The notes beneath the pieces were generated by a model, which ran no database searches, was not told the origin of the DNA, and saw only the letters and a list, made by a program, of their open reading frames with translations. From NCBI GenBank assembly GCA_027486035.1, contig JAIXPX010000047.1, positions 1-64,000 on the forward strand: 64,000 bases of DNA, read 5' to 3'. This DNA comes from Erythrobacteraceae bacterium. GTDB taxonomy: Bacteria; Pseudomonadota; Alphaproteobacteria; Sphingomonadales; Sphingomonadaceae. Below, one piece after another: positions 57,024-63,033 of the stretch (its first letter is position 1; the number at the start of each line of letters is the position of its first letter). Made by a program: the position numbers and the translations under genes.

Positions 57024-58445
57024 GTGGCGGCGCAAGATGACGAGAAAGAGTTTGTGACCGTGCCCGAGACCTGGACTCCCGAGAGCTGGAAGGCCCACGA
57101 AGCGCGCCACCTGCCGCATTACGAGGATGCGGCCGAGCTGGCCGAGGCCGAAAACACCCTCTCGTCCTATCCGCCGCTGGTGTTTGCGGGTGAGGCGCGC
57201 GCGCTCAAGGCCGATCTTGCCTCGGTCGCCAAGGGTCACGGCTTCCTGCTGCAAGGCGGGGACTGTGCGGAGAGCTTCGCCGAGTTCCACCCCAACAACA
57301 TCCGTGACACCTTCCGCGTGCTGCTCCAGATGGCGGTGGTGATGACCTTCGCCAGCAAGCGTCCGGTGGTGAAGGTTGGGCGCATGGCGGGCCAGTTCGC
57401 CAAGCCGCGCTCCTCGCCGACCGAGACGGTGGATGGCGTCACTCTGCCGAGCTACCTCGGCGACAATATCAACGGGATCGAGTTCGATCCGGTCAGCCGC
57501 CGCAATGATCCCGCTCGCATGGTCAAGGCCTATTCGCAGGCCGCCGCGACCCTGAACCTGCTCCGGGCCTTCGCGGGCGGGGGCTATGCCAACCTCAGGC
57601 AGGTCCACCAGTGGACGCTCGATTTCATGGGCCGCACGCCATGGACAGAGAAGTTCGCCGAAATGGCGGACCGCATCGGCGAGGCTTTGGACTTCATGGA
57701 GGCCTGCGGGGTCGATCCGGGCACCGTGCCGCAATTGAAGGGCACCAGCTTCTACACCAGCCACGAAGCCCTGCTGCTGCCTTACGAGCAGGCGATGACG
57801 CGGCAGGATTCGCTCACCGGCGATTGGTACGCGACCAGCGCCCATATGCTGTGGATCGGCGACCGGACCCGTTTTCCCGGCTCGGCGCATATCGAATTCG
57901 CGCGCGGCATCGGCAATCCGCTGGGCATGAAGTGCGGGCCGAGCCTCGAGCCCGATGCGCTGCTGCGTCTGCTCGACGTGCTCAACCCTGCGCGCGAGGC
58001 GGGCCGCATCACCCTCATCAGCCGCTATGGCCATGACAAGGTCGAGGACGGCCTGCCGAAGCTGGTCCGCGCTGTGCAGCGCGAGGGCCATCCGGTGCTG
58101 TGGTCCTGCGACCCGATGCATGGCAATGTCGTCAAGTCCGACACCGGCTTCAAGACCCGGCCGTTCGACCGCATTCTCAGGGAAGTGAAGGGCTTCTTCG
58201 CCGTCCACCGCGCCGAGGGTTCGCACCCGGGCGGCATCCATATCGAGATGACCGGGCAGGACGTGACCGAATGTGTCGGCGGGGCTGTTGCGATCACCGA
58301 GGAACGGCTCGGCGACCGCTATCACACCCACTGCGACCCGCGCCTCAATGCCGAGCAGTCGCTCGAGCTCGCCTTCCTCGTGGCCGAGATGCTGAACGAG
58401 GCAGCCGGCACCCGCGAGGCCGAGGGGCAGGCTCACGCCGCATAG
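57024..58445 (+). CDS. Class II 3-deoxy-7-phosphoheptulonate synthase
   Basis: [59 protein letters not shown]. Confidence 0.95.
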
Positions 58446-58571
58446 GGCAAGCGCGCCAAAAGCTGACGAGTGTGATGATTTTGCGGCAGCTTTCCGGCTA
58501 GCACGCGTCTTTCCTGTGTCACGGCGCCGGGGCATACCCCGGCGCGGGCGCAGGCTGGGCGGGAGGCGCGC

Positions 58572-59090
58572 GTGCATCGAACCGAAAGACTGGGCGAGGC
58601 CGAGGCGAGCGGCAATGCCGGACTTGCCGCGCACTTCCGCCGCACACGTGCCCTGACCGAAGCGCTTGTTGCGCCCCTCAGCGATGCCGATGCCTCGATC
58701 CAGTCGATGGAGTATGCCTCGCCCGCCAAGTGGCACCTCGCGCACACGACGTGGTTCTGGGAGACCTTCCTGCTGCGTGGGTCTGCGCCCGGATACCGGC
58801 TGCATGACGAAAGCTGGCCGTTCCTGTCCAACTCCTACTACGAGGCCGAGGGCGCGCGGCTGCTGATCGGCATGGATCTGGTGAAGGACGAGACAGAGCT
58901 GCTTGCCGCCTATGACGATGCAGCCGGGGTGACGGCGCGGTCCAACCTCAATCTCGTTGCCCGCGTGAACCGCGAGCTCGGCGGCGACATTCCGGCCGCA
59001 AAGCTCCGCCACGAGGCGCGCTGGACCGACAGCGCGCAGGCCTTCTCGCTGGTGCTGGCCGAGGCGGCGCGGGTGCGCTCGGCCCCATGA
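58572..59090 (+). CDS. Chimeric remnant: EgtB N-terminal DinB-like domain fused to EgtD C-terminal fragments
   Basis: aa about 1-96 is EgtB-like (QSMEYASPAKWHLAHTTWFWETFLL...FLSNSYYEAEGAR); aa about 97-150 is EgtD-like (LLIGMDLVKDETELLAAYDDAAGVTARSNLNLVARVNRELGGDIPAAKLRHEARW); aa about 151-166 matches an EgtD C-terminus (WTDSAQAFSLVLAEA). Confidence 0.7.
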   Translation: MHRTERLGEAEASGNAGLAAHFRRTRALTEALVAPLSDADASIQSMEYASPAKWHLAHTTWFWETFLLRGSAPGYRLHDESWPFLSNSYYEAEGARLLIGMDLVKDETELLAAYDDAAGVTARSNLNLVARVNRELGGDIPAAKLRHEARWTDSAQAFSLVLAEAARVRSAP

Positions 59091-59121
59091 AACCTCTCCT
59101 TGCCTCGCGCGTTGGCGGGGC

Positions 59122-60066
59122 ATGGGATCACATCACGACATTTTGGTCATCGGCGGCGGCATGGCGGGGCTTTCCGCCGCGCAGGCTCTGGCCGCCACAG
59201 GGCGCAGCGTCACCGTGCTCGACAAGGGTCGCGGACCCGGCGGGCGCATGGCGACGCGGCGGGTGGAAAGCCAAGGCGAGACGCTGCGCTTCGATCACGG
59301 CGCGCAGTATTTCACCGCCCGCGATCCGGCCTTCCGCGCCGTTGTCGCCGCGTGGGAGCGGGATGGCATCGCCGCAAGCTGGCCGGCTGCGGGCGAGGAG
59401 GCATGGGTCGGCACGCCGGGGATGAATGCCTGCGTCAAGGCCATGGCCGAGGCGCTCGATGTGCGCTGGGGTGTGCGCGCCGAGCGCCTGACGCGCAGCG
59501 CCGGGCTGTGGCAGGTCATCGCCGCCGGGCAGGTCTTTACCGCTTCGACCCTCATCGTCGCGGTGCCGGCCGAACAGGCTGCCGTGCTGCTGGCGGACAT
59601 CGCCCCTCCATTCGCGGCGCTTGCGGCGGGCGTCGCCTCGGCGCCGTGCTGGGCGGTGATGGCGAGCTTTGCCGAACGGCTGCCGCTGGCGGACACGTTC
59701 CGTTCCGACACGGCCCCCGTCAGCTGGGCTGCGCGCAACTCTGCCAAGCCCGGCCGCGGCGGGCCGGAGACGTGGGTGATCCACGCCAGCCCGGCGCGGA
59801 GCCGTAAACTGATCGACCTCCCCAAGGATGAGGTTGCTCGCACGATCCTCGCGGATTTCTTCGCCGCAGCCGGCACCGCGTCGATCCTGCCCATGCATCT
59901 CGACGCGCACCGCTGGCTCTATGCCCAGCCCGAAGCCCGCAAGGACGGGGAGGGCGCGCACTTCGATGCGGCGCTGGGGCTGGGCGTTGCGGGGGACTGG
60001 CTCCAATCTCCACGGATCGAGGGTGCCTGGCTGTCAGGCCGTGCGCTTGCAGCACTCGTGGATTAG
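59122..60066 (+). CDS. Renalase-like FAD-dependent NAD(P)-binding oxidoreductase
   Basis: HDILVIGGGMAGLSAAQALAATGRSVTVLDKGRGPGGRMATRRVE; FDHGAQYFTARDPAF. Confidence 0.88.
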   Translation: MGSHHDILVIGGGMAGLSAAQALAATGRSVTVLDKGRGPGGRMATRRVESQGETLRFDHGAQYFTARDPAFRAVVAAWERDGIAASWPAAGEEAWVGTPGMNACVKAMAEALDVRWGVRAERLTRSAGLWQVIAAGQVFTASTLIVAVPAEQAAVLLADIAPPFAALAAGVASAPCWAVMASFAERLPLADTFRSDTAPVSWAARNSAKPGRGGPETWVIHASPARSRKLIDLPKDEVARTILADFFAAAGTASILPMHLDAHRWLYAQPEARKDGEGAHFDAALGLGVAGDWLQSPRIEGAWLSGRALAALVD

Positions 60067-60191
60067 CAAAGGGCCCGTGCGATCGGCTTTCACGGCCGAC
60101 GCCGGTTGCAGACGACGTGTGTGGCGGCAGGTACTGCGTTGACGCTTGCCGCCAACCACGCCTTGGTTGCGATGCCAGGTCTTTGCTCCTA

Positions 60192-61391
60192 ATGGACCGC
60201 GTCACGATGAAAGTCTGCTTTCTCTACAACCATGATGCAGGACATCAGGTTGCCCATAGCATAGGCATTGCGAGTGCGCTGGCGCAGCACCATAGGGACA
60301 TCCGAACGGTGGTAGCCTATGGCAGTCCGGAAATCCGCGCCGAGATCGTCAAGCATCTCACCCCGGAACAGAACGCGTTGCTCGAATGGCTCGATCTGAG
60401 CCTCCCGCGATGGGTCAATGCGGTTTTGCATCCGATCAATCGCCTGCTCCCTGCCCGGCGATTGCTCCGCCTCTACGCCGGATCGCGCAAGCTTCGTCAG
60501 TTCGACATGATCGTGTCGACCGAACGCACATGCCTTTCGCTGAAACGCCACTGGCGGGGCGACGGGCCCGTGTTTGTATTTGTCCCGCACGGTGCCGGGG
60601 ACCGGAATGTTTCCTATCATCCGGCGATGCGTGACTTCGATCTTATGTTGCTGTCAGGCCAGAAGGTGGTCGATCAGATGGTCGCGCACGATATTGCACC
60701 TGCCAGCCGCTGCCGGATCATCGGCTATCCCAAGTTCGACATTCTGAAGGGCCGAAAGCCGGACAAGTTCTTCGATAATGACAGGGCGGTTTTTCTCTAC
60801 AATCCGCATTTCGATCCAGTTCTTTCCAGCTGGTACGATCATGGTCCGGCCATTCTTGATTGGTTTGCCGCTCATCCGGAATACAACCTGATATTCGCCC
60901 CGCACGTCATGCTGTTTTTCAAGAGCCTGCACATCTCGCCCGAATACAAGCAGGGGCGGCGTCGGCCCGATCTCAAGCCGGAATGGAACGATTGCGCAAA
61001 CATCATCATCGATACAGGTAGCGAACGGCTTTTTGACATGAGTTACACGCTGGCGGCAGATGCCTATATAGGCGACGTATCGAGCCAGATTTACGAGTTC
61101 CTGTACCGGCCGCGTGCAGCCTTTTTCATCGATGTTCATACGGGACGCGATCCAAGTGCGGATGAGCCCGCCTACGAGATGTGGCAGATCGGTCCGGTGG
61201 TCCCGAGCGCGCAAGATCTGTTCGATCTCGTCCCGCACTGGGAGAAGTTCGCGGCCGAGTACCGTGACAAGCAACAACGCCTGCTCGCTTACACCGCAGA
61301 CGCCAACGATCCGCGTCCCGCATCGCTCCGGGGCGCCGAGGTGATTGCCGACTACCTTGCCGGCCCCTCGGCATATGGGGGGCGGGGTTAG
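60192..61391 (+). CDS. CDP-glycerol glycerophosphotransferase-like family protein
   Basis: VFVPHGAGDRNVSYHPAMRDFDLMLLSGQKVVDQM...; AADAYIGDVSSQIYEFLYRPRAAFFID resembles the TagB/TagF ADxxIxDxSSxxxEF motif. Start at 60192 or 60207. Confidence 0.6.
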   Translation: MDRVTMKVCFLYNHDAGHQVAHSIGIASALAQHHRDIRTVVAYGSPEIRAEIVKHLTPEQNALLEWLDLSLPRWVNAVLHPINRLLPARRLLRLYAGSRKLRQFDMIVSTERTCLSLKRHWRGDGPVFVFVPHGAGDRNVSYHPAMRDFDLMLLSGQKVVDQMVAHDIAPASRCRIIGYPKFDILKGRKPDKFFDNDRAVFLYNPHFDPVLSSWYDHGPAILDWFAAHPEYNLIFAPHVMLFFKSLHISPEYKQGRRRPDLKPEWNDCANIIIDTGSERLFDMSYTLAADAYIGDVSSQIYEFLYRPRAAFFIDVHTGRDPSADEPAYEMWQIGPVVPSAQDLFDLVPHWEKFAAEYRDKQQRLLAYTADANDPRPASLRGAEVIADYLAGPSAYGGRG

Positions 61392-61470: not shown

Positions 61471-62796
61471 TCATTGCTCGCTGGAGGTGCGCACCATGTT
61501 GCGCAGGACCCACCAAACCAGCAAGCTCAGGATGACATACTCTGACACCTGAACCAGCGCCACCAGCCAGCTGACGCCGAGCGGGCTTTGCGCTGTCGTC
61601 AGGATTGCCACAGCCAGCAGGGAGACGGTCCCCAGCCGCGTGATGAGGATGTAATGCGCCTTGCTGACCGAGTGGAGCACCGGTTCATAGACTACGCTTG
61701 CCAGTTCCATTGAGGCGGCAAGGATCAGCGGCACCAGTATGACGTCTCCTGCCTCGAAACCCGGCCCTGAAATGAGGCTCAAAAGGTCCGAACCGAATAG
61801 TACTGCCAGCCCGCTCAGTGCGGCAGCGGTCGGCACCACCGCAAGGGTCACGCGCCGGGAAATCATCTGGAAATCCTCTACGCCAGACAAGTGGCGCTGG
61901 CGGTTCACTTCGGGGTAAATCGCATCGGAAATGAGGACTGCGAACCTGCTGAGCCCCTTCGCCAGTTGGTCGGCGATGCGGTAGACACCAGCCGCACTCG
62001 TCCCGAACAGATAGCCGACCGCCACCAGGGGGCCTTGCTGGACCACGGCCTGCAGGGAGGTGTTCCAGTATGTCACCCACAAGAACTGCGTAATCGTGGG
62101 GTTCTCCGCAACAGACCGACGCAATTCGCGAAACCGTCCCAAGCGGAACCATTCAGAGCCGAGCCGCCAGGCGACGTACCACATGGTAACCGCCGTAATC
62201 AGCTCCACGATCGCCCATGCGAGCAGAAAGCGGCCAACACTTGGCCCGGTAAGCCAGATCGCGATGGCAGCAAGCAGCCGGCCGGTCGGCGTGATGGCGC
62301 CAGCCCATACGGACAGCTCGAACCGGTTCAGCGCGCGAATGATGCCGTAAGGCGCCGATACGCGCGTCAGCAGCATGGCGCAGATGAATACCAGCGCCAT
62401 CTTGTCAAAGGCGGGGTTCAGGCCCAGCGATTTGCCGAACATGAGGATGATGCCCGTCACGAGGACGCATCCGGCCAGAGATGCGGCCAGATCCACCACA
62501 CCCCCGAGGATCGAAAGCCGGGCAAAGGCCTCTTTGTCGTCGCGCGCCAGATGCGGCGTTCCGAATTTGACGATGACCTGCCAGGTCTGGAACCCGGCCA
62601 GCAGCACAAATGCCTGAGCAAGGCCGAAAATCAGTGCAAAGTGGCCAAAGTCCTTCACGCCCAGCGAACGGGCGAGAATGGCCAGATAAATCAGGCTGCT
62701 AACCGCGCCAAAACCCTTGCCTCCCAACAGCCACCCGAAGTTCCCGAGGATACGCCGAAGCGCCAGTTGGCTTTCGTTATGTCCACTAGATTGCAT
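61471..62796 (-). CDS. Polysaccharide flippase (Wzx/MATE-like, oligosaccharide flippase family)
   Basis: About 12 hydrophobic helices; GNFGWLLGGKGFGAVSSLIYLAILARSLGVKDFGHFALIFGLAQ typical flippase N-terminus. Confidence 0.85.
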   Translation of the reverse strand: MQSSGHNESQLALRRILGNFGWLLGGKGFGAVSSLIYLAILARSLGVKDFGHFALIFGLAQAFVLLAGFQTWQVIVKFGTPHLARDDKEAFARLSILGGVVDLAASLAGCVLVTGIILMFGKSLGLNPAFDKMALVFICAMLLTRVSAPYGIIRALNRFELSVWAGAITPTGRLLAAIAIWLTGPSVGRFLLAWAIVELITAVTMWYVAWRLGSEWFRLGRFRELRRSVAENPTITQFLWVTYWNTSLQAVVQQGPLVAVGYLFGTSAAGVYRIADQLAKGLSRFAVLISDAIYPEVNRQRHLSGVEDFQMISRRVTLAVVPTAAALSGLAVLFGSDLLSLISGPGFEAGDVILVPLILAASMELASVVYEPVLHSVSKAHYILITRLGTVSLLAVAILTTAQSPLGVSWLVALVQVSEYVILSLLVWWVLRNMVRTSSEQ

Positions 62797-63033
62797 CGTG
62801 GGTCCGTGCCGCAATCAAATCGCCATCGCAACCCATGATCGCAACGCAACACCCGGGGCATTGCATGCATCGCGTCTTGTCGCTCCACTAGGCTCTTGCC
62901 GGCGGCCCGACAACGGGGCTGCCGGGATCGTCTTGGAGGTTCGATGTCATTGCGTTCAGGCAGAGAGCATTGCGCCGGGGTGGAGGGACTGGTTGCGCCA
63001 CCATCCCCCGCCTTCCGGTCCAGCGCCGGGGTT

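Follow-up and report, generated by a model that had tools for sequence, protein, structure and literature searches.

The two enzymes closest to the reading frame described here are EgtB, the hercynine oxygenase/sulfoxide synthase (TIGR03440; PDB 6o6l, 6qki and 8qf6), and EgtD, the L-histidine N-alpha-methyltransferase (TIGR03438; PDB 4pim and 7scf). EgtB has a two-domain fold composed of an N-terminal DinB part and a C-terminal FGE-sulfatase domain, and its iron site is made by three histidines (PMC9103826). In EgtD, histidine is bound by Tyr56, Asn166, Tyr206 and Ser284, and Glu282 belongs to this site as well (PMC8593015). Deletion of egtBD in Methylobacterium abolished ergothioneine (PMC4621440). 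At the ppe38-71 locus of Mycobacterium tuberculosis, neighbouring genes have been joined in frame by a deletion to give a chimeric open reading frame (ORF), and expression or function was shown for such deletion-made chimeras (PMC7671302).

The window, that is, the whole stretch of 64,000 nucleotides analysed, likewise carries a chimeric ORF, which starts with a GTG at 58572, stops at 59088-59090 and encodes a product of 172 aa combining pieces of EgtB and EgtD. The ORF, its parts and its neighbours are arranged as follows.

57024-58445, + strand: class II DAHP synthase (aroG type), upstream neighbour and synteny marker
58572-59090, + strand: chimeric ORF, very probably an egtB-egtD remnant, 172 aa, GTG start
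58572-58859, + strand: EgtB N-terminal part, aa 1-96, with the KWHLAHT and NSYY motifs
58848-58859, + strand: junction 1, GAGGGCGCGCGG, near-repeat common to egtB (EGAR) and egtD (EGAL)
58860-59024, + strand: EgtD internal block, LLIGMDLVKD...HEARW, aa ~97-151
59016-59025, + strand: junction 2, GCGCGCTGGA, direct repeat occurring twice in egtD of many relatives
59026-59090, + strand: EgtD C-terminus (aa ~149-172) and the original egtD stop
59122-60066, + strand: flavin amine-oxidase/renalase-like protein, downstream neighbour and synteny marker

The first-pass annotation of this DNA had described the ORF as an EgtB N-terminus fused to two EgtD fragments, and the separate identities of the parts were borne out when the ORF was profile-searched whole and as two separate parts. 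ORF residues 19-97 matched positions 2-80 of the 413 in TIGR03440 (E 3e-25), and the second part (window 58860-59087) matched positions 173-239 of the 301 in TIGR03438 (E 7e-19), with DinB_2 (E 5e-9) and Methyltransf_33 (E 6e-19) as the matches in Pfam. A PDB search placed residues 7-96 on the EgtB structures 6o6l, 6qki and 8qf6, the match reaching about residues 103-107 of 6o6l and 6qki, and residues 93-164 on the EgtD structures 7scf and 4pim. When compared with syntenic relatives, the EgtB part was about 70-85% identical to intact EgtB and the internal block about 70-84% identical to EgtD. The last 24 residues, previously noted only as resembling an EgtD C-terminus, indeed corresponded to that end of the intact proteins (65-83% identity with the same RSAP end; 83% to the relative L039 and 67-71% to several more).

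By the curated full-length cut-offs, the ORF belongs to neither family, as it scored 89 bits against TIGR03440 (cut-off 360 bits) and 72 bits (71 in the whole-genome search) against TIGR03438 (cut-off 290.9 bits). On the EgtB side, residues 1-96 can be aligned to the DinB part at the N-terminus of the enzyme, and only two EgtB features are kept, the first histidine motif (KWHLAHT) and the NSYY pair. This pair falls around Tyr93-Tyr94 of the thermophilic EgtB (PMC10903977), a regional rather than residue-by-residue match. The loss of the catalytic FGE-sulfatase domain claimed at first was confirmed, no match to this domain being found in the ORF by Pfam and TIGR profile searches, but the DinB domain itself is also cut short (DinB_2 positions 1-67 of 128), a loss that the first-pass annotation had not mentioned and that takes in the stretch where the later iron-binding histidines lie. 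On the EgtD side, residues 92-153 correspond to the AYDD..GVT block with the equivalent of Tyr206, and residues 149-172 to the C-terminus, whereas the N-terminal half (Tyr56 and the GSTIGN region with Asn166) and a 62-aa stretch holding the equivalents of Glu282 and Ser284 are missing. The GSTIGN, IEM and ENSHK motifs of the relatives' EgtD, by which histidine and SAM binding was judged, were all absent from the ORF. The SAM/histidine site is mostly gone, as had been proposed for the SAM-binding core, but the block with the Tyr206 equivalent, the only histidine-site residue retained, is still present. Judged from these sequence comparisons, the ORF product is almost certainly inactive in both the EgtB and the EgtD steps, and because it lacks what the two enzymes need for catalysis, the lineage most likely no longer makes ergothioneine. 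A promoter and terminator scan of 58400-59200 found nothing.

In same-genus genomes, the gene order at this place is DAHP synthase, egtB, egtD and flavoprotein, and, as the first-pass annotation had anticipated, an intact and adjacent egtB-egtD pair with overlapping open frames was found in syntenic relatives between the same two neighbours. The DAHP synthase of the window (PF01474, E 7e-206) was 91-95% identical to that upstream of egtB in the relatives, and the flavoprotein gene (PF01593, PF13450) adjoins egtD there. Both the EgtB and the EgtD parts were matched in 33 of the 36 same-genus genomes searched, and the named database relatives with matches were Erythrobacter, Porphyrobacter and other Erythrobacteraceae, a similarity by which the window itself probably belongs to this group. 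The nearest relatives were about 75% identical, and the intact ancestor was not seen in any close strain.

Codon-level comparison with these relatives placed the two junctions within a few bases of the sites initially suggested (~58857 and ~59022). At junction 1, the common stretch is GAGGGCGCGC(G/T)G; the relatives read YYEAEGAR-ISR in EgtB and TLGEGA-LLLIGMDL in EgtD, and the window reads YYEAEGARLLIGMDL. Here about 1.53-1.57 kb are absent relative to the relatives, a length that is not a multiple of three, and the deletion joins egtB and egtD, which sit in different frames. This repeat is imperfect, with identity at 8-10 of 12 positions in most relatives and at 5-6 in two. In 7 of 11 relatives, the repeat at junction 2 is exact over 10-11 bp and belongs to the top four exact direct repeats in egtD by length. 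All 11 relatives measured have its copies at a spacing of 186 bp, reading HEARWND at the first and ARWTD at the second; these 186 bp are missing in the window, which reads HEARWTD.

The repeats at the junctions suggest that both deletions arose by slippage or misalignment at direct repeats. Starting from a normal adjacent egtB-egtD pair, a first deletion between copies of a direct repeat of ~10-12 bp would have removed egtB past its first ~96 codons together with the 5' half of egtD, and a second, likewise at a direct repeat, would have removed 186 bp inside egtD along with the IEM and ENSHK active-site motifs. The frame would have been kept by chance in both deletions, helped by codon-phased repeats in these GC-rich genes, so that the resulting ORF would end at the old egtD stop. 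Such a two-deletion origin, which the first-pass annotation had put forward, was supported by the separate matches of the two parts, the syntenic intact pairs, the failure to find another copy in the draft genome and the lack of any relative sharing the architecture, and we thus consider the ORF very likely to be a deletion-fusion pseudogene. As is expected of a pseudogene, intact parent genes occupy the same place in relatives and the fused form is restricted to one lineage; among the facts that speak against this assignment are the preserved frame and the absence of a stop over 172 codons. Pseudogenes of this kind are already known from bacteria, and no new mechanism is involved. On the time scale of the genus, the event probably happened recently, and it provides a clean base-level example of operon loss via short direct repeats in which the open frame left behind would be taken for a protein by automatic annotation.

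The genome itself is a draft of 2.55 Mb in 52 contigs with 89.9% completeness, in which the search for intact copies elsewhere found neither a second EgtD nor another EgtB with a DinB part. The only other match to the EgtB model (G000:C42) was a plain FGE-sulfatase protein without DinB, and was rejected as a second EgtB. Given this draft state and the position of both junctions at short repeats, the contig might have been collapsed at the repeats in an organism that in fact has an intact egtB-egtD pair. However, repeats of 10-12 bp are far below the much longer k-mers usually employed in assembly, two separate collapses would be required, and both flanks are continuous and syntenic, all of which make an assembly artefact improbable.

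Even less probable is a functional minimal chimeric protein, in which the EgtB helix region joined to the EgtD fragment would be expressed and retained to serve a new role; if true, deletion would have turned parts of two enzymes into a new protein, stable, chimeric and helical. The frame is open, with the original start and stop retained and no frameshift, and the M. tuberculosis chimeras offer a precedent, but nothing suggests either expression or function for the window ORF. The same fused architecture was not found in 61 relatives, in 78 database loci or, among the matches listed with the best-scoring first, in 401 family genomes, where the window alone tops the sorted matches listed. A widely conserved family of identical full-length architecture, which had been named at the outset as the finding that would speak against a fusion by deletion, was thus looked for, and no relative shares it. 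Furthermore, the DinB bundle and the methyltransferase core are both cut, and an AlphaFold model built from the single sequence, weak evidence as it used no alignment, gave a mean pLDDT of 43 and a pTM of 0.28. Of the two outcomes that the first-pass annotation had left side by side, decay has far stronger support than a new minimal DinB-like protein, since the ORF occurs in one genome only and its DinB domain is truncated.

The open frame needs no selection, since in-phase repeats are common: among 9-bp repeats in intact relatives, 52% of those between egtB and egtD and 78% of those within egtD are in phase. If 9-bp repeats drive deletion, two in-frame events are expected about 40% of the time, although the in-phase share of the 12-bp repeats between egtB and egtD was lower, at 19% of 27. 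Because repeats are so often in phase, the open frame does not argue strongly for selection, which was gauged here by counts of unique changes. The ORF pieces showed a mean divergence of 0.243 from 15 relatives, compared with 0.218 among the relatives themselves, the values for the flavoprotein being 0.275 and 0.250, respectively. Radical changes were observed at three positions otherwise invariant in the 15 relatives (D48Y, F86S and F124S), although other relatives also show 0-3 changes at otherwise invariant sites. Unique nonsynonymous and synonymous changes stood at 6:1 in the ORF and 31:25 in the rest (Fisher p 0.22, few counts). With a divergence only slightly above that of the relatives and a difference in N:S that is not significant, the rate of change does not demonstrate decay.

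A conserved family of short proteins built from EgtB- and EgtD-like pieces, older than the genus, can be dismissed as refuted for the collections searched. The tblastn matches that seemed to span residues 13-172 (L111 and L112) come from loci where an intact EgtB is accompanied by a separate EgtD at a distance of about 1.5 kb, and the alignment had run on into the rest of the intact EgtB (as also in L100, rejected with them). Apart from the window's own copies and one locus of reversed order, every locus has the two parts 1.5-1.8 kb apart. Among all loci scanned, both C-terminal EgtD motifs were missing only in the window's own copies. In L088 (Novosphingobium profundi), the order was reversed, the EgtD match being the upstream one.

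No egt match was obtained in two complete genomes of the genus, G023 and G030, in which about 700 bp (L127) and about 30 bp (L126), respectively, separate the DAHP synthase gene from the flavoprotein gene; the third same-genus genome without both matches, G013, is only 74% complete. Since G023 and G030 are also without an egt match, loss of the egtB-egtD pair in the genus probably happened more than once or via several routes, and these two genomes, together with that of the window, indicate that ergothioneine synthesis has been lost repeatedly in a single genus.

A natural full-length EgtB-EgtD fusion was observed at L128:1-2466 (- strand) in G044, a genome of the same order and another family, where an intact EgtB is followed by an acidic linker of low complexity and then by an EgtD that is truncated where the contig ends. 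Like the window ORF, it carries EgtB at the N-terminal and EgtD at the C-terminal side of one chain, but it comprises full EgtB and EgtD, as far as the contig reaches, with a linker, whereas the ORF keeps neither core. Its domain order is the reverse of that of fungal Egt1.

To the right of the flavoprotein gene, 60117-61391 encodes a protein of 424 aa, for which Pfam gave no match at E 0.001. Relatives have a gene ~39% identical to it near the same place in the opposite orientation, indicating that this region has been rearranged. Adjoining it, 61471-62814 (- strand) encodes a protein that by eye appeared to be a flippase-like membrane protein.
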